DNA of 35,461 nucleotides from Clostridiaceae bacterium (lineage in GTDB: Bacteria; Bacillota; Clostridia; Acetivibrionales; DULL01). The stretch spans positions 1 to 35,461 of the forward strand of contig DULL01000107.1 in NCBI GenBank assembly GCA_012840395.1, given 5' to 3'. The notes beneath the pieces are model-generated. The model had not been told where the DNA came from, did no database searches, and saw only the letters and a list, made by a program, of their open reading frames with translations. Below, in pieces: positions 431 through 19,222 of the stretch. Both the position numbers and the translations under genes were made by a program. The stretch's first letter is position 1; the number at the start of each line of letters is the position of its first letter.

Positions 431-486
431 GGGCGGTTCTCTTGCTTCTAAGACCGTTGGAAGCAGGAGAACCGTCCCTCTGCTTC
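431..486. repeat. Dispersed clostridial hairpin repeat, double copy
   Basis: Positions 460-486 form a 27-base unit with stem GAAGCA/TGCTTC and the core AGAACCGTCCCT. It matches the unit at 18069-18095 at 24 of 27 bases. Positions 431-448 carry a degenerate inverted copy, so the whole block also folds as one long hairpin (GGCGGTTCTCTTGCTTC against the complement of GAAGCAGGAGAACCGTCC). It begins two bases after the stop codon at 488-490. There is no T-run, so a simple terminator is not obvious. Confidence 0.65.
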
Positions 487-487
487 C

Positions 488-3400
488 TCAGTTTGTGCTG
501 GCATGAGCATAGACTGTAACACCCATGTTTTCTCCTACCAGATCAGGCATTCCGCTTGTAAGCCAAGCTTCAACCTTTGTACCTGCAATTTGGTATGATA
601 CTGTGGCTTCCTGACTCAAAGCTGACATCATTATCACTGTTACTTTTGCATTAACATCTGTTCCCTCTGTAAACTGAACAACAAGGTACTTGCCGGCTAT
701 GTCATCGGCTTTGGTTCCGCTTATGGTTATTGTACGGATGTATCCTGCACCTCCGGTACTTTCAGCACTTATTTCAAGAATGTATTCTTTCTCTCTCTGT
801 TTTACCGTGACTATAAATTCTTTTGTATCGCTTGCAGAACCTTTCGTAATGGTTGCTGTTAAAGTAACAACTTCATCTCCTTCAGCATGTCTTGTTACCC
901 TTCCATCAGAAGCGATAACTTCTTCATTACTGGAAGTCCAGTTAATAATACAGCCTTCCCCATTGGGTATGCTGGTTATAAGGTTAAGGTCTTCAGTTAC
1001 ATTGTCAAGATCTGTATTGTTTCCTTTGATGAGTTCTTCTGTCAATCCTTCCTTATCTGCCTTCACTGCTTCAGAATCAGATACTGGTTCGCCTGTTCTG
1101 TAATTTATCTTAATATTTAATTCTCCAGTTTTTCCTGTCAGGTCTATTATCTCTTTTTCTGCATTATAATTATTCCAGGGAAGTCCATTTATTGTAACAT
1201 TTTTAATTGTGTAGCCTACTGGAACTCTAACCTTTAAATAAATGTTGCTTATTGGATCTCTGTCAGGAATAGTCACCGATGCATCAATGTAATTTTCATT
1301 TAAATGTGAAGTTAAAGTATATGATACGGGCCCAAAGAATGTGGGCATATTTTGAATTTCTATTTCCTTGCCATCCTCAAGCCATCCTCGTGGTGTTGCA
1401 TAGGCAAGGTATAGATTTTCCGGAATCCCGTTTTCGTCCACAGATTCTCTTATAAGCATCAACCTTAAAATTTGCAGGAAAAGCGCATTGTTGGCTGAAC
1501 AGGGCGGTAAATAGAATGTTCTGTAGTATTCACCAGGATATACTCCAATTGTATCTCCTTCTCCGCTAATAAATGTACCTCTTGTCATTCCATGGGCTAG
1601 TTTTCCGTATAAAGCTAGTACAAGTCTGTCTGCGTCATCTCTTTCTGCCATGAGTTGCGTATGAGACAATCCATAAACATTATCAACTCCCGGAGTTTTA
1701 TATCCTGGCAGTCCTCCGCTTTTATAAGATCCAATTTCAACAGGATAGTAATTAAATCTGACAAGTCCCAGCAGCCATGATCCGTAATCTTTCATATATT
1801 TGTGTATACCATCCATAAATTGTGAATCATAATCTATAATGCCTGAAACAAATCCATAAGGCGTCACCAGATTCCAATAGGATCCGATCCTCGTTTCTGT
1901 AATCGGATCATAGGGCTGCGCATTAGTATTAAGGAGCCGTGTAGGAACAAATATTGCCCCGTCTTCCAGTTCAGCTTTGGATTGGTCTACAGCATTAAGC
2001 AAGGCAGTTTTTAATATATTTGCTTCTGCTGAATAAGTCTCATATAAATCGTTATCTCCAAGAATTCTAAAAATCTCGGATAAATCTCGCATACCTCTCC
2101 AGGCAACAGCTTGATGATGGAAATTATAGTCATAATCAGGAATATCTCCCGAATATCTCTGTTTTTCAAGTAAATTATATGGATCTGCGGTAATTTGTTC
2201 TTTCATATCCTGCATATATGAAACCAATGTATTCTTGTTAGCATTTATTAATGAAGCATCCTTGGTAAGGAAATAATACTGGGCTGCATGGGAAAGCTTT
2301 TCACCCCACTCCCAGTTTTCATAGGTTGCAGGTCCTGGTCCTTTTGACATTCCAATCAGACTGTTTTGTATGGATTTTTGCTCATCAGTAAAGCCGTACC
2401 ATCCCAATACTTTTGCAGTATCGTTCCCTTCAGGCTGGTAAAAATCTTCATAAGCATTTCCAACGCTATATCTCCAACCCAAATAAAGGTTTTGTATCAG
2501 GAGATTTTTCATTGCATTCATTACTATTTCTTCAGGCACTGAAACAACCGTGCCATTATTCAGCTTTGTATCCCAATACTGTTTTAATTCTGCCTTTTCT
2601 GTTTCATATCTTTCCGCATTAAGGATAAAATCCCCACAAGTACCAGGATCATTAAGCCTTGCAACAAAGATTGTTTTATCCGTTCCATCTGATAAATCCA
2701 CGGTATATGTTAATTCTGTTCCATTATAATTAGCCCCTTCTCCAAAGACCAGGTATGTGTTTCCATCCTAGATAAGTTTATTGCCCTGAATAGATAATCC
2801 TGTATCACTTAAATCAAACTTAACATTGACATTTTCAATTTCTGTATTGTTTTTATTAATTATTATTTTCACAAAGCTTACAAGAGAATTTGTTTCTGGA
2901 ATATAATCTGCAAAAGATTCCTGCATATATTTAACACCACGGGAGTCTTCATATACAGTCTTAAGTATAGGGTAATATCCCCCGTCCAGTACAGGCTCAT
3001 TAAGTCTGGCCAATGCCCTGCCGAACCTTTCATTTCCCTGAACACCCACATAAACTGTCATCTTTCGACTGTTATATCTGTTGGAAATAATCTGGCTTCC
3101 ATCAGCGACATGCAGGGCAACAGGCCCTCCTCCGCTTGCTGACATTGGTCTTCCAAATGGTATATAATATACACCGGAATCTGTAAGAAATGTTCCAGTT
3201 AACATAAGTGGTTTCAAATAGTCTTTTATATTTTCATAGGTAGGCCCTTCAGGGCTGGTAATTAATTCTTCTCCCCATACATCAATCTTTTGACTTAAGG
3301 CATAGTTTACACTTTCCTCATAGCCTGGCTCCAATTCAAGATTTTCTTCAAAAGGATCCGAAAGGGGTCCTAACCATTGAGTAAATATAATTTCAAAAGC

Positions 3401-13322: not shown

Positions 13323-13359
13323 TTAATCAATAAATTATATGTTGAAAGAGGTGTCCAAA

Positions 13360-15594
13360 ATGACCAATCGGATTAACAACCTGAGAGAGCTTTTCTTTGC
13401 AGGAGAACATAAAAAATATCGCAAAGAGAATTTAGGCCTATCTATTCTAAACATTGAAACAGAAAAATATCCCTTTGAAATCAGAAAAGCACTTGCTTTT
13501 GAAAAGGCACTTGAAAATATGCCCATTTTTCTGTTGGAAGGTGATTTGATTTGTGGTGGCAAAACAGTATATACTCTGCCAGACTACATTACAGAATATG
13601 AAAAGGAAACAGGAAATCATAATTTTGAAACTAAGGGATACAATAATGCATTTGATTTCTGCTATAACCTTGGTCAGGATGAACGTGGTTACGGACTTGC
13701 AAACAGTTCAATACCTGCATACTACCGTGTAATTCCCATGGGTATACCTGCTTTAATTGAAGAAGCTCAAAAAAAACTTAAAGAAGCTACAGATGAGAAA
13801 AAAATAAACTATTACCGTTCAGTCATCATTGCAAATGGAGCTGCAATTAAACTTCTTAAACGCTATGAAATATTTGTTCGTGAGCTTGCAGAAGTTGAAG
13901 CGGATAGTGTACGTAAAAATGAACTTAATACAATTTCTGATAACTTAAAACAATTACAAATCGGAGCTCCCCAAACATATTGGCAGGCAGTTCAACTTAT
14001 GTACTTCATTCAATTCCTGATATGGGTGGAAGGTGGCTATCTTATACCCCTCGGTCGTATAGATCAGATACTTTACCCATACTATAAAAAAGATATTGAA
14101 TCGGGTATCCTTACAAAAGAATTTGCATTCGAGATCCTTGAGGCATTCTTTATGAAATTAAACTATGAAATAGACCGTACTCATGGTGAGTCAGGAAAAT
14201 TCAACAGTGATACAGGCCAATCAGTTACAATTGGAGGTATTGATCCAATAACCGGTGAAGATGTAACTAACGATCTGACATATATGATATTGGATGCAAA
14301 ATGTGATATGCGTGTTACGGATCCTAAAGTCCATCTTCGAGTACACAAAAATACTCCTGAAGCTTTATGGAAAAAAGCTGCTTATCTAAGTAGCCTTGGA
14401 ATGGGATTCCCTACTTACGACAATGACGATGCAATTATTCCAGCTTTCATGAAACATCCTGAGTATACTTTGGAAGATGCCAGGGACTATGCCGCCTCAG
14501 GTTGTTGGGAAATGACAATTCAAGGAAAAAGTTTCAACCGTAATCTTGGCAATATTTGCTGCCTGCGCGCACTCGAATGGGCCCTTAACGATGGTGCATA
14601 TATGCTGGGAACACCAAATGCCGAGACCGCAACTGGTACGATTAATGGCCGTTTTGGTTTGCAAACCGGACGTTTGGAATGGTTTGATACTTTTGATAAA
14701 CTGTTTAATGCCTTTAAAGTACAAATTAAACATAATATTGATATGGTTACATCTTATTGCAACCGTGCCATGCTTTCACCTTCCCCATTTTATTCCTCTA
14801 TGATGGATGACTGTTTTGAAAAAGGTTTAGATTTTGATAATGGCGGCTGCAAATATAATGAAACTGACTTCCAGCTGTCTTCACTTTCTGATGCTGCAGA
14901 TGCATTGTATGCCATTAAAAAGTTAGTTTATGAAAATAAAGAATATACCTTAACTGAATTTGTTGAAATTTTACGCAATAACTGGGAAGGTCATGAGCCA
15001 CTGAGGCAAAGAATTATAAATGAATTCCCTAAATTTGGCAACGATATAGATGAAGTTGATTTAATTGCCCGTGAAATAGTGGACTATTATACCCAAGAAG
15101 TCAAAAAGCATCATAACCAGTTTGGTCAGACTTACCGTGCACGTATATCCAGTGCTCTTGCATATATTTCTGTAGCTCAGACACTTGGTGCATCTGCAAA
15201 CGGCCGAAAAGCACGTGAACCATTCTCCGATAATCTGTCATCCTCACTAGGCTGCGATAAAAACGGTCCTACAGGTATAATAAAATCATGCTGTAAGATT
15301 GATTTTTCAAACTGTGCTGGTGGTGCTATTCTGGACTTGAAATTCCATCCCTCTGCCCTTAAGACTGATGAAGGAAAAGAAAAATTTATCGCATTGTTGA
15401 AAACCTATTGTCAATTAGGTGGCATGCAGGTGCAAATAAATGTACTCGATAACAAAGTATTGCTAGATGCTAAAAAACATCCGGAAAACTATCGCGATTT
15501 AATTGTCCGCGTATGGGGCTTCTCCACATATTTTATAGCTCTTCCGGAAAAATACCAGGATCATATTATAGCACGTTCAACCCTATCGTTATAA
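13360..15594 (+). CDS. Glycyl radical enzyme (PFL2-type family), substrate unknown, GCWE active site
   Basis: This is an oxygen-sensitive radical enzyme of 744 residues. The C-terminal glycyl radical loop reads RVWGFSTYF with the radical glycine at residue 720, against the common RVxGY(S/T). The thiyl-radical cysteine is Cys382 in SGCWEMTIQGKSF. Glutamate two residues later (Glu384) is kept as in dehydratase and lyase members (usual GCVEP), while true pyruvate formate-lyase has adjacent cysteines. The Trp between them and the lack of Pro after Glu are unusual. The ATG at 13360 has AGAGGTG before it, so it is preferred over 13339. The activase gene follows after a hairpin. Family members cleave C-C, C-N, C-O or C-S bonds; which applies here cannot be said. 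The adjacent importer and hydrolases suggest a nitrogen-containing substrate. Confidence 0.92.
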   Translation: MTNRINNLRELFFAGEHKKYRKENLGLSILNIETEKYPFEIRKALAFEKALENMPIFLLEGDLICGGKTVYTLPDYITEYEKETGNHNFETKGYNNAFDFCYNLGQDERGYGLANSSIPAYYRVIPMGIPALIEEAQKKLKEATDEKKINYYRSVIIANGAAIKLLKRYEIFVRELAEVEADSVRKNELNTISDNLKQLQIGAPQTYWQAVQLMYFIQFLIWVEGGYLIPLGRIDQILYPYYKKDIESGILTKEFAFEILEAFFMKLNYEIDRTHGESGKFNSDTGQSVTIGGIDPITGEDVTNDLTYMILDAKCDMRVTDPKVHLRVHKNTPEALWKKAAYLSSLGMGFPTYDNDDAIIPAFMKHPEYTLEDARDYAASGCWEMTIQGKSFNRNLGNICCLRALEWALNDGAYMLGTPNAETATGTINGRFGLQTGRLEWFDTFDKLFNAFKVQIKHNIDMVTSYCNRAMLSPSPFYSSMMDDCFEKGLDFDNGGCKYNETDFQLSSLSDAADALYAIKKLVYENKEYTLTEFVEILRNNWEGHEPLRQRIINEFPKFGNDIDEVDLIAREIVDYYTQEVKKHHNQFGQTYRARISSALAYISVAQTLGASANGRKAREPFSDNLSSSLGCDKNGPTGIIKSCCKIDFSNCAGGAILDLKFHPSALKTDEGKEKFIALLKTYCQLGGMQVQINVLDNKVLLDAKKHPENYRDLIVRVWGFSTYFIALPEKYQDHIIARSTLSL

Positions 15595-15635
15595 CGTAAT
15601 GAGCTGTTTATTAGTTTACGCTGTTTAATAAAAAA

Positions 15636-15685
15636 CCATAGCTGCTGTGGTTATCAGCAGCAGTTATGGCTTTATTAACTTTTTT
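15636..15685 (+). terminator. Attenuating hairpin between glycyl radical enzyme and activase genes
   Basis: CCATA-GCTGCTG (15636-15647) pairs with CAGCAGC and TATGG (15655-15669), with a three-base bulge. It is followed by CTTTATTAACTTTTTT. As a partial terminator it would let a fraction of transcripts reach the activase, which is needed in much smaller amounts than the enzyme. Confidence 0.6.
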
Positions 15686-15707
15686 GTGAAGCTTTAGGAG
15701 GAATAAA

Positions 15708-16637
15708 ATGGATAAACAAAATACCGTCCTTATTTTTGATATAAAAAAATTCGCAGTACATGACGGGCCAGGAATACGGACCACTTTTTTTACCATGGGC
15801 TGTCCACTCCGCTGCCTTTGGTGTCAGAATCCTGAATCCTTCAGCCCTAATCAATCTTTGGTATTAAACCGGATGAAATGTATTGGCTGCGGTGCTTGTG
15901 CCTCTGTATGTGATAAAATTGGACCTGACCTTATGTTGCTAAAATCTGAATGCACTCTATGTGGAAAATGTGTTTCGGTATGTAAATCAGGAGCAAGATC
16001 TTTTATAGCAAGACCTTATACTCCCGAAATGGTAGTTAACGAAGCAATGAAAGATAAAATTTTCTACGACCAGTCTGGAGGAGGAGTAACCTTTTCCGGT
16101 GGAGAATGCATGTTACATGCTAATTTTTTGAAAAAAACATTAAAAATGTTTAAAGATTTAGGTATCCACACCACTATTGACACTTGTGGATATGTACCGT
16201 GGGAAAATTTTGAGAAGGTTCTGCCATATACAGATTTATTTCTTTATGATGTTAAGGTAATGGATCCAGTGAGGCATAAAGAATATACCGGAGTAGATAA
16301 CAGCCTTATACTTGCTAATCTTAAAAAAATAATTGACCTGGGAGCTTCAGTAATTATCCGCGTACCTCTTATTCCAGGTTATACCGACAATCCGGATGAT
16401 ATGGAAGCATTGGGTAATTTTATTATAGGAACCCTGGAAAATAAAATTATTCGTGTAGAGCTATTGCCATATAACAAGTTGGCTGAATCAAAATATGAAA
16501 ATAAAACAGCCTATCGCGACGGAGGAGTAGGTACCTATAAGCTTTCTGACCTATCTCCTCAGACAGAAGAATATGTGGAATCTCTAAAAAATATTCTTGT
16601 AAAAAAAGATGTGACAGTATTTGCTGAAAAACTTTAA
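15708..16637 (+). CDS. Glycyl radical enzyme activating protein (radical SAM)
   Basis: The protein uses S-adenosylmethionine and a 4Fe-4S cluster to abstract hydrogen from the glycine of its partner enzyme. At 309 residues it has the radical SAM motif Cys32-x3-Cys36-x2-Cys39 (GCPLRCLWC). An inserted two-cluster ferredoxin-like domain follows: CIGCGACASVC (58-68) and CTLCGKCVSVC (82-92). The conserved GGGVTFSGGE SAM-binding segment and the DTCGY and DVK motifs are also present. The insert is typical of activases for PFL2-type enzymes and absent from the PFL activase. AGGAGG lies six bases before the ATG. It is co-transcribed with the glycyl radical enzyme through the hairpin at 15636-15685. 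Confidence 0.95.
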   Translation: MDKQNTVLIFDIKKFAVHDGPGIRTTFFTMGCPLRCLWCQNPESFSPNQSLVLNRMKCIGCGACASVCDKIGPDLMLLKSECTLCGKCVSVCKSGARSFIARPYTPEMVVNEAMKDKIFYDQSGGGVTFSGGECMLHANFLKKTLKMFKDLGIHTTIDTCGYVPWENFEKVLPYTDLFLYDVKVMDPVRHKEYTGVDNSLILANLKKIIDLGASVIIRVPLIPGYTDNPDDMEALGNFIIGTLENKIIRVELLPYNKLAESKYENKTAYRDGGVGTYKLSDLSPQTEEYVESLKNILVKKDVTVFAEKL

Positions 16638-16693
16638 TAAATTTTAGTAAAATTATTGCAAAACCTCACTATAATGTTATTTATTGTTATACT

Positions 16694-16721
16694 TTGCATA
16701 GTAAGTTGTATAACATATAAT
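16694..16721 (+). promoter_or_regulatory. Promoter candidate for the ROK regulator gene
   Basis: TTGCAT (16694-16699) and TATAAT (16716-16721) are 16 bases apart. The site lies in the 150-base gap after the activase gene and about 66 bases before the regulator's ATG, so the regulator can be made independently of the enzyme operon. Confidence 0.45.
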
Positions 16722-16787
16722 ATAATGTATAAACATGTAATAATATTAATTTATTACATCTTCGTTTGTTCTGAAAGGAGATTAGTT

Positions 16788-18014
16788 ATGAATCCGGCAA
16801 TACTTGCTGCAAAGCAAAAAAATGCACGCAGAATACTGGATTATATTATAAAGTGCGGTGAAACTTCCCGTGTAAATATTGCAGCAGCATTAAACCTAAG
16901 TACTGCTACTGTTACAAATATAATCAATGATTTGCTTGCGGCAAATCTTGTTTATGAAGGTCGCCAGGATAATGCTCCTGTTGGACGCAAGGCAACTTTT
17001 ATTCATTTTAATGAAAAACTTTATTACATTATAGCTGTTTCTCTATCAAACATTGGAAATATATCTTTAAGTGTATGTAGTCTTCTAGGTGAGCCAATAA
17101 ATTCCAAGGAATATTATATAGATTTATATGTAAATGAATCAAACACAATAACGATGGTCCTTAAAAGTATTATTGATACCGTCAGCAGTTTTATTGAAAG
17201 CCAGGAAGAAGATATAAAGTCAAAGCTTTGCGCAGTGGCCTTAAGTATTCCTGGCATGGTAAACAAGAAACAGATTGTGAATGCACCCTCACAAAATTGG
17301 AAAAATATGAATTTGGCTTCTCCCCTTCAGGCTGCTACAAAACTCCCTGTGTATCTGGAAAATGTTACACGGATAAAAGCAATTTACGAAATGCGCTATA
17401 TTAATCCTGAAGATAAAAATGTTATATATATTACCTTATCACCTGGTATAGGAATAGTAAATTTTTTTGACGGTAAAATGATTATGGGACGTAATGGTAT
17501 TGCAGGTGAAGCCGGGCATATGACACTAAACCTTCATGGAGTTGAGTGCTATTGCGGTAATAGAGGATGTTTTGAGTGCTATTGCGGTGAAATCAATATT
17601 CTTAAAAAAGCTGAAAAATTGCTTGAAAAGGATAATAGATGCAATATTCTTTTTGATCTTGTAGAAAACAAGCATATGCCGCTAACAATGAATACTCTTT
17701 TTGAAGCCAGAAATCTCGGAAGTCTGAAGGTACATGAATTACTTTCCGAAGCAGGAGAATACCTTGGTGCAGGCCTTGTTTCACTTTTTAACTGTTTTGA
17801 TCCCGATAAAATAATAATTTCTGGTGCACCGGTTGAAGGCGACTCCTTCCTGCTGGATGTGGCAGTGGAAGAAGCAAAGAGCCGGATTATTAGCAAATTT
17901 AGCCGTGATTTTAATATACAGATCGCTACTCTTAAAACAGAAGAACTGCATAAAGGCATATGCGCTTTTGTATTAAATAAACTTCTGGATAAATTTGTGC
18001 TTCAAATAATGTAG
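16788..18014 (+). CDS. ROK-family transcriptional regulator (NagC/XylR-like)
   Basis: A winged helix-turn-helix lies at about residues 12-70 (RRILDYIIKCGETSRVNIAA, then LNLSTATVTNIINDLL). It is followed by an actin-like ROK domain with the glycine-rich phosphate region, IAGEAGHM, and the zinc-binding CYCGNRGCFECYCGE motif. The length is 408 residues, as usual for ROK repressors. The ATG at 16788 has AAAGGAG seven bases before it; a longer frame from 16656 has no such site. ROK regulators usually sense a sugar or sugar phosphate. A ROK protein beside a glycyl radical enzyme and peptide-type importer hints at a sugar-derived or amino-sugar inducer, which is inference. Likely targets are the divergent operon and the enzyme gene. 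Confidence 0.9.
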   Translation: MNPAILAAKQKNARRILDYIIKCGETSRVNIAAALNLSTATVTNIINDLLAANLVYEGRQDNAPVGRKATFIHFNEKLYYIIAVSLSNIGNISLSVCSLLGEPINSKEYYIDLYVNESNTITMVLKSIIDTVSSFIESQEEDIKSKLCAVALSIPGMVNKKQIVNAPSQNWKNMNLASPLQAATKLPVYLENVTRIKAIYEMRYINPEDKNVIYITLSPGIGIVNFFDGKMIMGRNGIAGEAGHMTLNLHGVECYCGNRGCFECYCGEINILKKAEKLLEKDNRCNILFDLVENKHMPLTMNTLFEARNLGSLKVHELLSEAGEYLGAGLVSLFNCFDPDKIIISGAPVEGDSFLLDVAVEEAKSRIISKFSRDFNIQIATLKTEELHKGICAFVLNKLLDKFVLQIM

Positions 18015-18045
18015 TGGGACAAGAAGACAGGTCCCTTGTCCCACT
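18013..18045. repeat. Hairpin repeat at convergent gene ends, variant stem
   Basis: A perfect 11-bp inverted repeat (AGTGGGACAAG at 18013-18023, CTTGTCCCACT at 18035-18045) starts within the stop codon of the ROK gene. The centre, AGACAGGTCCCT, resembles the AGAACCGTCCCT core of the repeats at 460-486 and 18069-18095 (9 of 12), while the stem sequence is different. It could act as a bidirectional terminator between convergent genes. Confidence 0.55.
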
Positions 18046-18068
18046 CAGAAAACGCGTAGACGAAAACA

Positions 18069-18095
18069 GAAGCACAAGAACCGTCCCTATGCTTC
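18069..18095. repeat. Dispersed clostridial hairpin repeat, second copy
   Basis: This 27-base unit with stem GAAGCA/TGCTTC and core AGAACCGTCCCT matches 460-486 at 24 of 27 positions. It overlaps the last codons and the TAG stop of the amidohydrolase gene. On the minus strand the hairpin is followed by TGTTTTCG, which gives weak terminator character. Confidence 0.65.
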
Positions 18096-19118
18096 TATTA
18101 TCTTCTTAGCATTATTATACATAATATCCTCAATATCACTTCTGCTAAGGCCTAAATCAATTGCCGCCCTCTTGAAAGCATGTAGTATCTCATACATGAA
18201 AAAAGTAAACGTATCGGCCTCAGGTCCTTCAACACCTCTCAGATGTGGGTCTTGAGATTCATCGCCATACAGTCCCTTAGGAACCAGGTTAATATAAGTA
18301 CCATTTTCAACTATTCTCTTCATTCTCATTTTACATATGGGAGCGTCACTACCGAACAATACTCTCTTAGGTCCGAAGGTTTCAATTGCTTGTTGTATAA
18401 TATTCTTATTAGTATTTGCAGAAAAATCAAAATAAAGATTTTTTGTAACTGAAAGAACTTCGAAGGCATCTCCCACATCGCTGTCAGCATAAGCTCTTCC
18501 GATGTGTGCAACTATAACTTTTGCATTAGGGTATTTTTCATCTATTTCCAGTAACTGAGCAAGATTAACTTTGTCTTTTAATCTTTGATTCCTTGGTATA
18601 TGAAGCATAATAATCCAACCATTTTTATTTGCAGCTTCAAATTGATATTTAGGAAAGAAGTCAAAGATTCTTATTTCTTTTTCTGGTATATATTCAGGTG
18701 CTAATGTAAGATAAGACTTAAGCCCTAGAAAATTTCCTTCCTTTAAGTTTGCCTCCAGTTCTTCCGGAGTTTCTTCAGGTCTGGAAAAATAAAGAGCCGG
18801 GAAACCATATTCCCTGGAAACTTCTGCAACGTAGTCATTATTCTTCTTAAAATCCTGACCGCGCCTAATACTTGCAAACATTAAAGGAGTGACCTCTTTA
18901 TCAGGAAACATAAGTTTATACATTTCCTGTATCTGCTCTCCGGTATTCTCCGGTGCCACCAACGAAGGCCATACAACTGTGCGCTTTATTTCTACCGGTA
19001 CCCTGTACTTTAATGTATGTACATGAGTATGTATGTCAATTATTTTACCCGGTAAAAAATCCTTGAGCTCTTTTTCATAGAAAATTCTATCAACTTCTTT
19101 AATTTCAAAAGTACTCAT
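18087..19118 (-). CDS. Metal-dependent amidohydrolase-2 family protein (TIM barrel)
   Basis: A 343-residue TIM-barrel metallohydrolase with the amidohydrolase-2 (PF04909) pattern: DIHTHVH near the N-terminus, MLHIPR and VAHIGRAYAD in mid-protein, and the conserved late aspartate in LFGSDAP. Members include hydrolases and non-oxidative decarboxylases such as ACMSD and gamma-resorcylate decarboxylase. The ATG at 19116-19118 is chosen because GAGAGG lies seven bases upstream; the GTG and ATG further out sit on or before that site. It has its own promoter and converges on the ROK gene, ending inside a hairpin repeat. It may belong functionally to the glycyl radical enzyme island, but adjacency is the only evidence. 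Confidence 0.85.
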   Translation of the reverse strand: MSTFEIKEVDRIFYEKELKDFLPGKIIDIHTHVHTLKYRVPVEIKRTVVWPSLVAPENTGEQIQEMYKLMFPDKEVTPLMFASIRRGQDFKKNNDYVAEVSREYGFPALYFSRPEETPEELEANLKEGNFLGLKSYLTLAPEYIPEKEIRIFDFFPKYQFEAANKNGWIIMLHIPRNQRLKDKVNLAQLLEIDEKYPNAKVIVAHIGRAYADSDVGDAFEVLSVTKNLYFDFSANTNKNIIQQAIETFGPKRVLFGSDAPICKMRMKRIVENGTYINLVPKGLYGDESQDPHLRGVEGPEADTFTFFMYEILHAFKRAAIDLGLSRSDIEDIMYNNAKKIIEA

Positions 19119-19222
19119 TTTCATTCCTCTCTTCACTTTCTAAAATTTTTTGCAAATACTAACTGGTGCTTTAGTAAATATTAAACTAATCAAAAAATCA
19201 TGGATACTGTCATTCCAATATT

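Follow-up and report, generated by a model that had tools for sequence, protein, structure and literature searches.

Hairpin repeats with a constant loop and lineage-specific stems as probable ends and dispersed copies of RAYT transposases in Bacillota

Introduction

The window analysed here, a stretch of 35,461 nt from a Clostridiaceae bacterium (assembly GCA_012840395.1, contig DULL01000107.1), carries three hairpins at gene ends, two of which share the stem GAAGCA/TGCTTC around a common core. The preliminary description read the third hairpin as a similar core on another stem, and proposed that a constant loop on exchangeable stems is under selection as an RNA or DNA structure. This raises the question of what kind of element these hairpins are, and where and why their stems change. 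The features concerned are listed in Table 1.

Table 1. Hairpins in the window and the open reading frames next to them
Feature	Position	Strand	Description	Basis
Left half of inverted pair	431..449	-	core AGAACCGCCCC (431-441, one mismatch); TGCTTC arm on + strand	sequence, fold
REP-like unit	460..486	+	stem GAAGCA (460-465)/TGCTTC (481-486), core AGAACCGTCCCT (468-479); right half of inverted pair (REPIN-like)	sequence, genome core copies, fold
ORF (context only)	488..2701	-	end 2 bp from unit at 460	ORF list
ORF (context only)	16656..18014	+	stop codon overlapped by hairpin at 18013	ORF list
11-bp hairpin AGTGGGACAAG/CTTGTCCCACT	18013..18045	-	GGGACAAG-GGNACCTGTCCC-CTTGTCCC class, probably decayed; overlaps stop codon 18012-18014 of + ORF	sequence, matching class at RAYTs L271/L114 of G015, second copy in genome
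REP-like unit	18069..18095	+	stem GAAGCA (18069-18074)/TGCTTC (18090-18095), core AGAACCGTCCC (18077-18087)	sequence, ORF table, genome copies, fold
ORF (context only)	18087..19136	-	convergent; stop codon inside unit at 18069	ORF list

Results and Discussion

Copies in the genome

Positions and arms of the two GAAGCA/TGCTTC units were borne out by the sequence. The 2.84-Mb genome contains 114 copies of their core AGAACCGTCCC compared to 0 of the backwards pattern, and the core hence does not reflect chance. Single-strand DNA folding joined the inverted pair at 431-449 and 460-479 into one long hairpin of -20 kcal/mol, and placed the three hairpins (z-scores of -4.2, -4.3, and -2.6) ahead of nearly all dinucleotide shuffles. 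Among the 101 distinct copies inspected, GGAAGCA-nn-AGAACCGTCCC-nn-TGCTTCC was the commonest form. About two thirds of the units have the GGAAGCA stem and most others carry close variants of it. The copies are arranged as single units, head-to-tail arrays, and outward-facing inverted pairs, the latter being numerous minus/plus pairs spaced by about 37 bp as is characteristic of REPINs. An unpaired GTAG beside the arms was found neither in these 101 units nor in units flanking RAYT genes. In 18 of 24 isolated GAAGCA units an A is located at position -2 before the 7-nt arm, which may be a weak target preference.

All three hairpins of the window touch or adjoin ORF ends (488, 18014, and 18087), as originally noted for stop codons. 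On the genome scale this is a preference rather than a rule. Based on mechanically called ORFs, the distance to an ORF 3'-end is no more than 20 bp for 28 out of 51 clusters, and the nearest gene boundary is a 3'-end in 38 clusters and a 5'-end in 17. The 59 clusters comprise 29 codirectional, 17 convergent, and 4 divergent sites, 4 sites within ORFs, and 5 at edges. This bias, including the excess of convergent over divergent intergenic sites, would be expected of hairpins that act in the transcript, as terminators or in protecting mRNA 3'-ends, and whose loop is read by a protein or RNA, and a terminator-like structure was indeed predicted on the minus strand at 18045-18013. This was the only such prediction; no intrinsic terminator (GC hairpin followed by a T run) was predicted at the GAAGCA unit at 18069-18095, and Rfam contained no family matching the repeats. 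A bias towards gene ends also results from selection against harmful insertions, as known for REPs (PMC3733652). Considering in addition that stems covary with the transposase lineage and that inverted units bracket the transposase gene on its upstream side too (see below), a role as RNA 3'-end elements is improbable.

A linked RAYT transposase

A Y1_Tnp search identified a RAYT gene of the same genome at C9:3-764, with five exact core copies on GAAGCA stems starting about 200 bp upstream. The contig ends within the gene and does not include its downstream flank, and the score of 76.8 bits against the NCBIfam model REP_Tyr_transpos (NF047646, cut-off 80) refers to this truncated protein. The linkage to a REP-type (Y1) transposase envisaged in the preliminary description was thus found next to these five cores and, in many other genomes, as units bracketing RAYT genes.

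Several lines of evidence relate the Y1 (HUH plus tyrosine) domain of these proteins to TnpA_REP. RAYT matched PF01797 (E 1e-15), the HxH and YIHxNP motifs are invariant in the RAYT proteins, and the TnpA_REP structure 4er8 was their sole sequence match in the PDB. A structure model (mean pLDDT 90) consists of an N-terminal Y1 fold and a C-terminal helical domain (helices 198-255), and its best structural match again was 4er8, in which TnpA_REP is bound to its REP hairpin. The C-terminal region gave weak matches to HTH_19, HTH_3, HTH_23, HTH_28, and Trp_repressor, all below the Pfam cut-offs.

We collected 123 RAYT loci of Bacillota, 48 from relatives and 75 named from GTDB, of which a few may represent the same genome twice. 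The GTDB-named hosts include Bacillus, Mesobacillus, Anaerobacterium, Desulforamulus, Pelosinus, Sporomusa, Syntrophomonas, Heliorestis, and Thermoanaerobacter wiegelii. Within 260 bp of the gene, inverted core units (at most 2 mismatches and an intact GTCCC) were located upstream in 70 and downstream in 66 of the 123 loci, compared to about 1% per flank expected by chance according to our own estimate. In 56 loci they were present on both sides and thus form terminal inverted repeats around the gene. Outward-facing units bracket RAYT homologues for example in the relatives G042, G031, G052, and G048.

Core abundance follows the presence of the enzyme. At least 10 cores were found in 25 out of 38 genomes with a strong RAYT match and in 16 out of 110 without (Fisher p 6.6e-9, an optimistic value since the genomes are related), with median copy numbers of 23.5 and 1, respectively. 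Against this association stand 13 genomes that have a strong match and fewer than 10 cores, and the 16 core-rich genomes lacking one, several of which are incomplete assemblies. In the latter, loss of the RAYT gene, a gap in the assembly, or other enzymes must be involved. At one orthologous gene end units are present in G031 and G052 and absent from the congeners G056, G024, and G045; the flanks are too diverged to place insertion ends to the base.

Stems follow the transposase lineage

Units flanking RAYT genes typically consist of an arm of 6-7 nt, in many cases with CA at its end, the core AGAACCGTCCC, and the complementary arm, with about 2 nt between core and arm on either side. Across the RAYT loci of Bacillota the 11-nt core is constant, whereas each RAYT lineage has a 6-bp stem of its own. 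When one unit was selected for each RAYT blind to pairing, 77.1% of the six stem positions formed Watson-Crick pairs compared to 39.5% with shuffled arms (maximum of 47.3% in 5000 shuffles). One unit for each of the 39 distinct arms gave 71.8% compared to 34% (maximum 48.7%). Furthermore, 5-nt arms differed by 0.80 mismatches between the two ends of one element and by 3.06 across elements, a difference reached in 0 of 5000 permutations. A set of 45 units contained 112 double-change cells compared to 35 after shuffling and had a covariation score of 0.734 compared to 0.200, which dropped to 0.10-0.15 when the partner was slid by 1-3 columns. Because these 45 units were picked by eye from 132, the end-matching permutation and the pairing of one unit per RAYT are the unbiased tests.

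In the RAYT tree, the clade of the genome studied here has the stem GAAGCA and the neighbouring clade TAATCA, while AGACAAG, TGTCA, AACA, and more occur in other clades. The RAYT of Anaerobacterium chartisolvens is of the GAAGCA type and that of Desulforamulus putei of the AGACTCAAG type. Identical stems were found in 36% of close RAYT pairs (p-distance below 0.45) and in 4-5% of distant pairs. Over all pairs the correlation of stem and RAYT distance was weak (Mantel r 0.13, reached by 238 of 5000 permutations) because stems saturate beyond close relatives. Core variants of distant RAYTs, GGNACCTGTCCC, CGAAACGTCCCC, and AACCCCGTCCCC, retain GTCCC.

Some genomes contain two or more stem classes, namely GGAAGCA and TTCAATT in G042, AGACAAG and TTCAATT in G048, and GACAC together with AAACA/GAACA in G031 and G052. 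Resident RAYTs flanked by matching stems were found for both classes in G042, G048, and G052, and for the AAACA/GAACA type in G031. This bears on the view that the units are binding sites of host proteins (nucleoid, gyrase, or repair) and that the transposase is a passenger between two sites. REPs elsewhere do bind host proteins, and our units are chromosomal repeats that are nearly absent as repeats from viral contigs; phage carriage received no support from the 50 scattered matches in IMG/VR, with only three contigs containing two matches. Host binding sites would not, however, account for stems that follow the transposase clade, nor for the fact that a single genome can carry several stems, each of which has a RAYT of its own, and we regard this explanation as very improbable.

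Within the genome studied here the stem is nearly fixed. Arm pairing showed no excess over shuffled arms and covariation was not significant, as expected if a single RAYT was the source of all copies; this genome is therefore no independent support. Hence, the notion of a constant loop on exchangeable stems selected for pairing, including the covariation that it implies, holds across RAYT lineages and does not extend to the genome in which it was conceived. The stem is swapped between transposase lineages, not inside the genome, and its covariation can be explained without a role in RNA.

Three further observations concern the ends of individual elements. The sister RAYTs L264 (G124) and L120 (G112) have a common AAGCA stem, and the core of L264 is AACCCCGTCCC, so that core and stem can change separately. 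A further end variant is the long perfect hairpin GGGGACGGTGACTTTTTTGCAAAAAAGTCACCGTCCCC upstream of the RAYT L274 (G118:C1:923000-925000). Many units, e.g. at L001 (minus strand), L121, and L014, are followed by tails of repeated 3' unit parts, consisting of GTCCCC and the 3' arm without the 5' arm.

The hairpin at 18013-18045

The third hairpin is not a copy of AGAACCGTCCC. It had been thought to keep a similar core, with AGACAGGTCCCT aligned to AGAACCGTCCCT. This did not stand, as AGACAGGTCCC is present in a single copy in the genome and showed no excess over the reversed control in 148 genomes; it was also rejected as a second genome-wide core. Judged from the sequence, the similarity on the plus strand looks fortuitous.

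On the minus strand the hairpin reads GGGACAAG-GGACCTGTCTT-CTTGTCCC. This reading, GGGACAAGGGACCTGTCTTCTTGTCCC, matches units beside the RAYT L271 of genome G015, which is flanked by the same class of stem and core (GGGACAAGGTACCTGCCCTTGTCCC, GGACAAGGTACCTGTCCCCCTTGTCCC), and a close second pair of the GGGACAAG-GGNACCTGTCCC-CTTGTCCC class is located at the RAYT L114 of G015. A second hairpin of this type occurs at G000:C63:36872-36896 in the genome studied here, where a GAAGCA unit adjoins as well. The hairpin at 18013 thus probably belongs, in decayed form, to a sister class that flanks other RAYTs; a matching RAYT was not found in the assembly, and the RAYT fragments L037 and L038 contained no relic of the GGGACAAG class. 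It does exemplify a change of stem, but one accompanied by a change of core and on the other strand. As an amplified family GGNACCTGTCCC was discarded, being weakly repeated (G001, G112, G138) although it flanks RAYTs in G015 and G029.

Proposed function

Taken together, the units are very probably the recognition ends and the dispersed non-autonomous, REP/REPIN-like copies of TIRYT-type RAYTs, i.e. Y1 HUH transposases with a C-terminal, possibly HTH-like domain. Most likely, they are single-stranded DNA hairpins recognised and spread by RAYT, and we infer that the enzyme cuts and mobilises them. A unit would fold on an exposed strand, e.g. the lagging strand. RAYT may then bind the loop core through its conserved HUH domain and read the stem by its structure or by lineage-specific contacts. 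Its tyrosine would nick beside the 3' arm, and units would be copied to new places, with those insertions surviving that occur at gene ends. Stem and transposase would drift jointly and the core stay fixed. By analogy, the constant loop may serve as docking sequence and the stem provide the fold: the TnpA_REP enzymes studied so far bind single-stranded DNA hairpins through contacts with the loop or with irregularities of the stem and cleave close by (PMC8266576).

A refinement compatible with this explanation follows the guide model of IS200/IS605, in which one arm pairs with the cleavage or target site and a change of stem retargets the element. The loop would then provide an invariable site for docking, while the stem would act as a pairing code (guide plus cleavage or target strand) that can be replaced freely, and the same single-strand transposase would have been re-coded dozens of times. 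Arms pair at both ends, and the stem sequence is freely exchanged under a constant core. Extra 3'-arm copies were found just downstream of 66 out of 244 units, compared to extra 5'-arm copies upstream of 28, which hints at strand polarity, and head-to-tail units of the genome abut at TGCTTC/GGAAGCA. Guide pairing has been described for IS200/IS605, and in one TnpA_REP the GTAG tetranucleotide picks the cleavage site through base pairing (PMC8266576). In a simple IS608 layout, however, the left flank should repeat the arm end as target, and such a copy was found in 0 out of 24 isolated GAAGCA units. We consider a pairing code possible but rather unlikely. If it exists, a joint swap of both arms would redirect the transposase.

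Relation to known elements

The closest relatives among described systems are the TIRYTs, RAYTs flanked by inverted repeats with the TIR consensus GGGGWSAS, which holds for only part of the published TIRs (Di Nocera 2013, PMC3733652). TIRYTs and TIRtrons have been equated with TnpA_REP subclass 2.1, where most TIRYTs fall and for which REP-like sequences were not found nearby (PMC6006769). TIRYTs and the elements described here have in common a Y1 protein that is RAYT-like and about 250-270 aa long, flanking inverted repeats, dimers, and clusters; the C-terminal domain is HTH-like in TIRYTs and helical, possibly HTH-like, in the proteins described here. The TIRYT consensus starts like the reverse complement of our core, GGGGACGGTTCT, with GGGGAC common to both, and differs from the main class found here at position 7, which is G and not A. 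In the TIRYT study the repeats are called TIRs, the families are moderately abundant, and Firmicutes or Clostridia are not named in the text (PMC3733652). In our data, unlike in that description, each TIR itself forms a hairpin, of which the loop is constant and the stem differs with the lineage.

GTAG REPs and REPINs associated with TnpA_REP groups 2 and 3 (PMC3116915, PMC8266576) likewise are short multi-copy palindromes with inverted pairs, a linked Y1 transposase, a preference for gene ends, and likely recognition as single-stranded DNA. In contrast, our units lack a 5' GTAG tag, their constant part is an 11-nt loop instead of a foot tetranucleotide, and the stem rather than the loop varies between families. 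CGTC REPs (PMC3733652) also are short many-copy palindromes containing CGTC, which in these is an unpaired tag at one end without a transposase, whereas here it is part of the loop and a transposase is linked. The IS200/IS605 elements IS608 and ISDra2 share the Y1 HUH transposase fold and hairpin ends, but in the elements found here a single unit, in inverted copies, forms both ends, and units also spread independently of the gene.

A search of the open-access literature by sequence and by the term TIRYT yielded no paper on these repeats, and the sequence matches look unrelated; a description elsewhere is possible. What is new is that the TIR is a hairpin unit whose loop is constant and whose stem covaries and is specific to the lineage, and that some genomes of Bacillota contain about 100 or more copies of it. 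A large RAYT subclass reported to have no REP-like partner would thereby be given one, which motif searches could miss because the stem differs in each lineage and the loop alone is constant. This accounts for GGGACGGTTCT repeats that occur in high copy number in Clostridia and Bacilli and that we did not find described in the open-access literature, and provides dozens of naturally matched transposase/hairpin pairs for studying the co-evolution of stem and enzyme. TIR, REP, and REPIN look like one continuum.

Further observations

A single full-length RAYT per REP type has been described as general (PMC6006769). In contrast, the genome of Anaerobacterium chartisolvens (G026, e.g. L106 and L255) contains 18 RAYT-like matches, two of them nearly identical on one contig, and these sequences suggest that the RAYT gene itself may still be moving there. 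The genome studied here also encodes three copies of a second RAYT type of about 307 aa, at least one of which (G000:C36:42164-42751, L036 1471-2394) is flanked by a different inverted repeat, GGGACATTCCT/AGGAATGTCCC. As source of the GAAGCA units these paralogues were rejected, since no AGAACCGTCCC is near them and L036 carries GGGACATTCCT/AGGAATGTCCC. In the window itself, positions 13339-16637 contain an ORF for a large enzyme and, after it, one of radical-SAM-like type, which by eye resemble a glycyl radical enzyme and its activase. By the same kind of inspection a peptide-type ABC transporter is encoded nearby.
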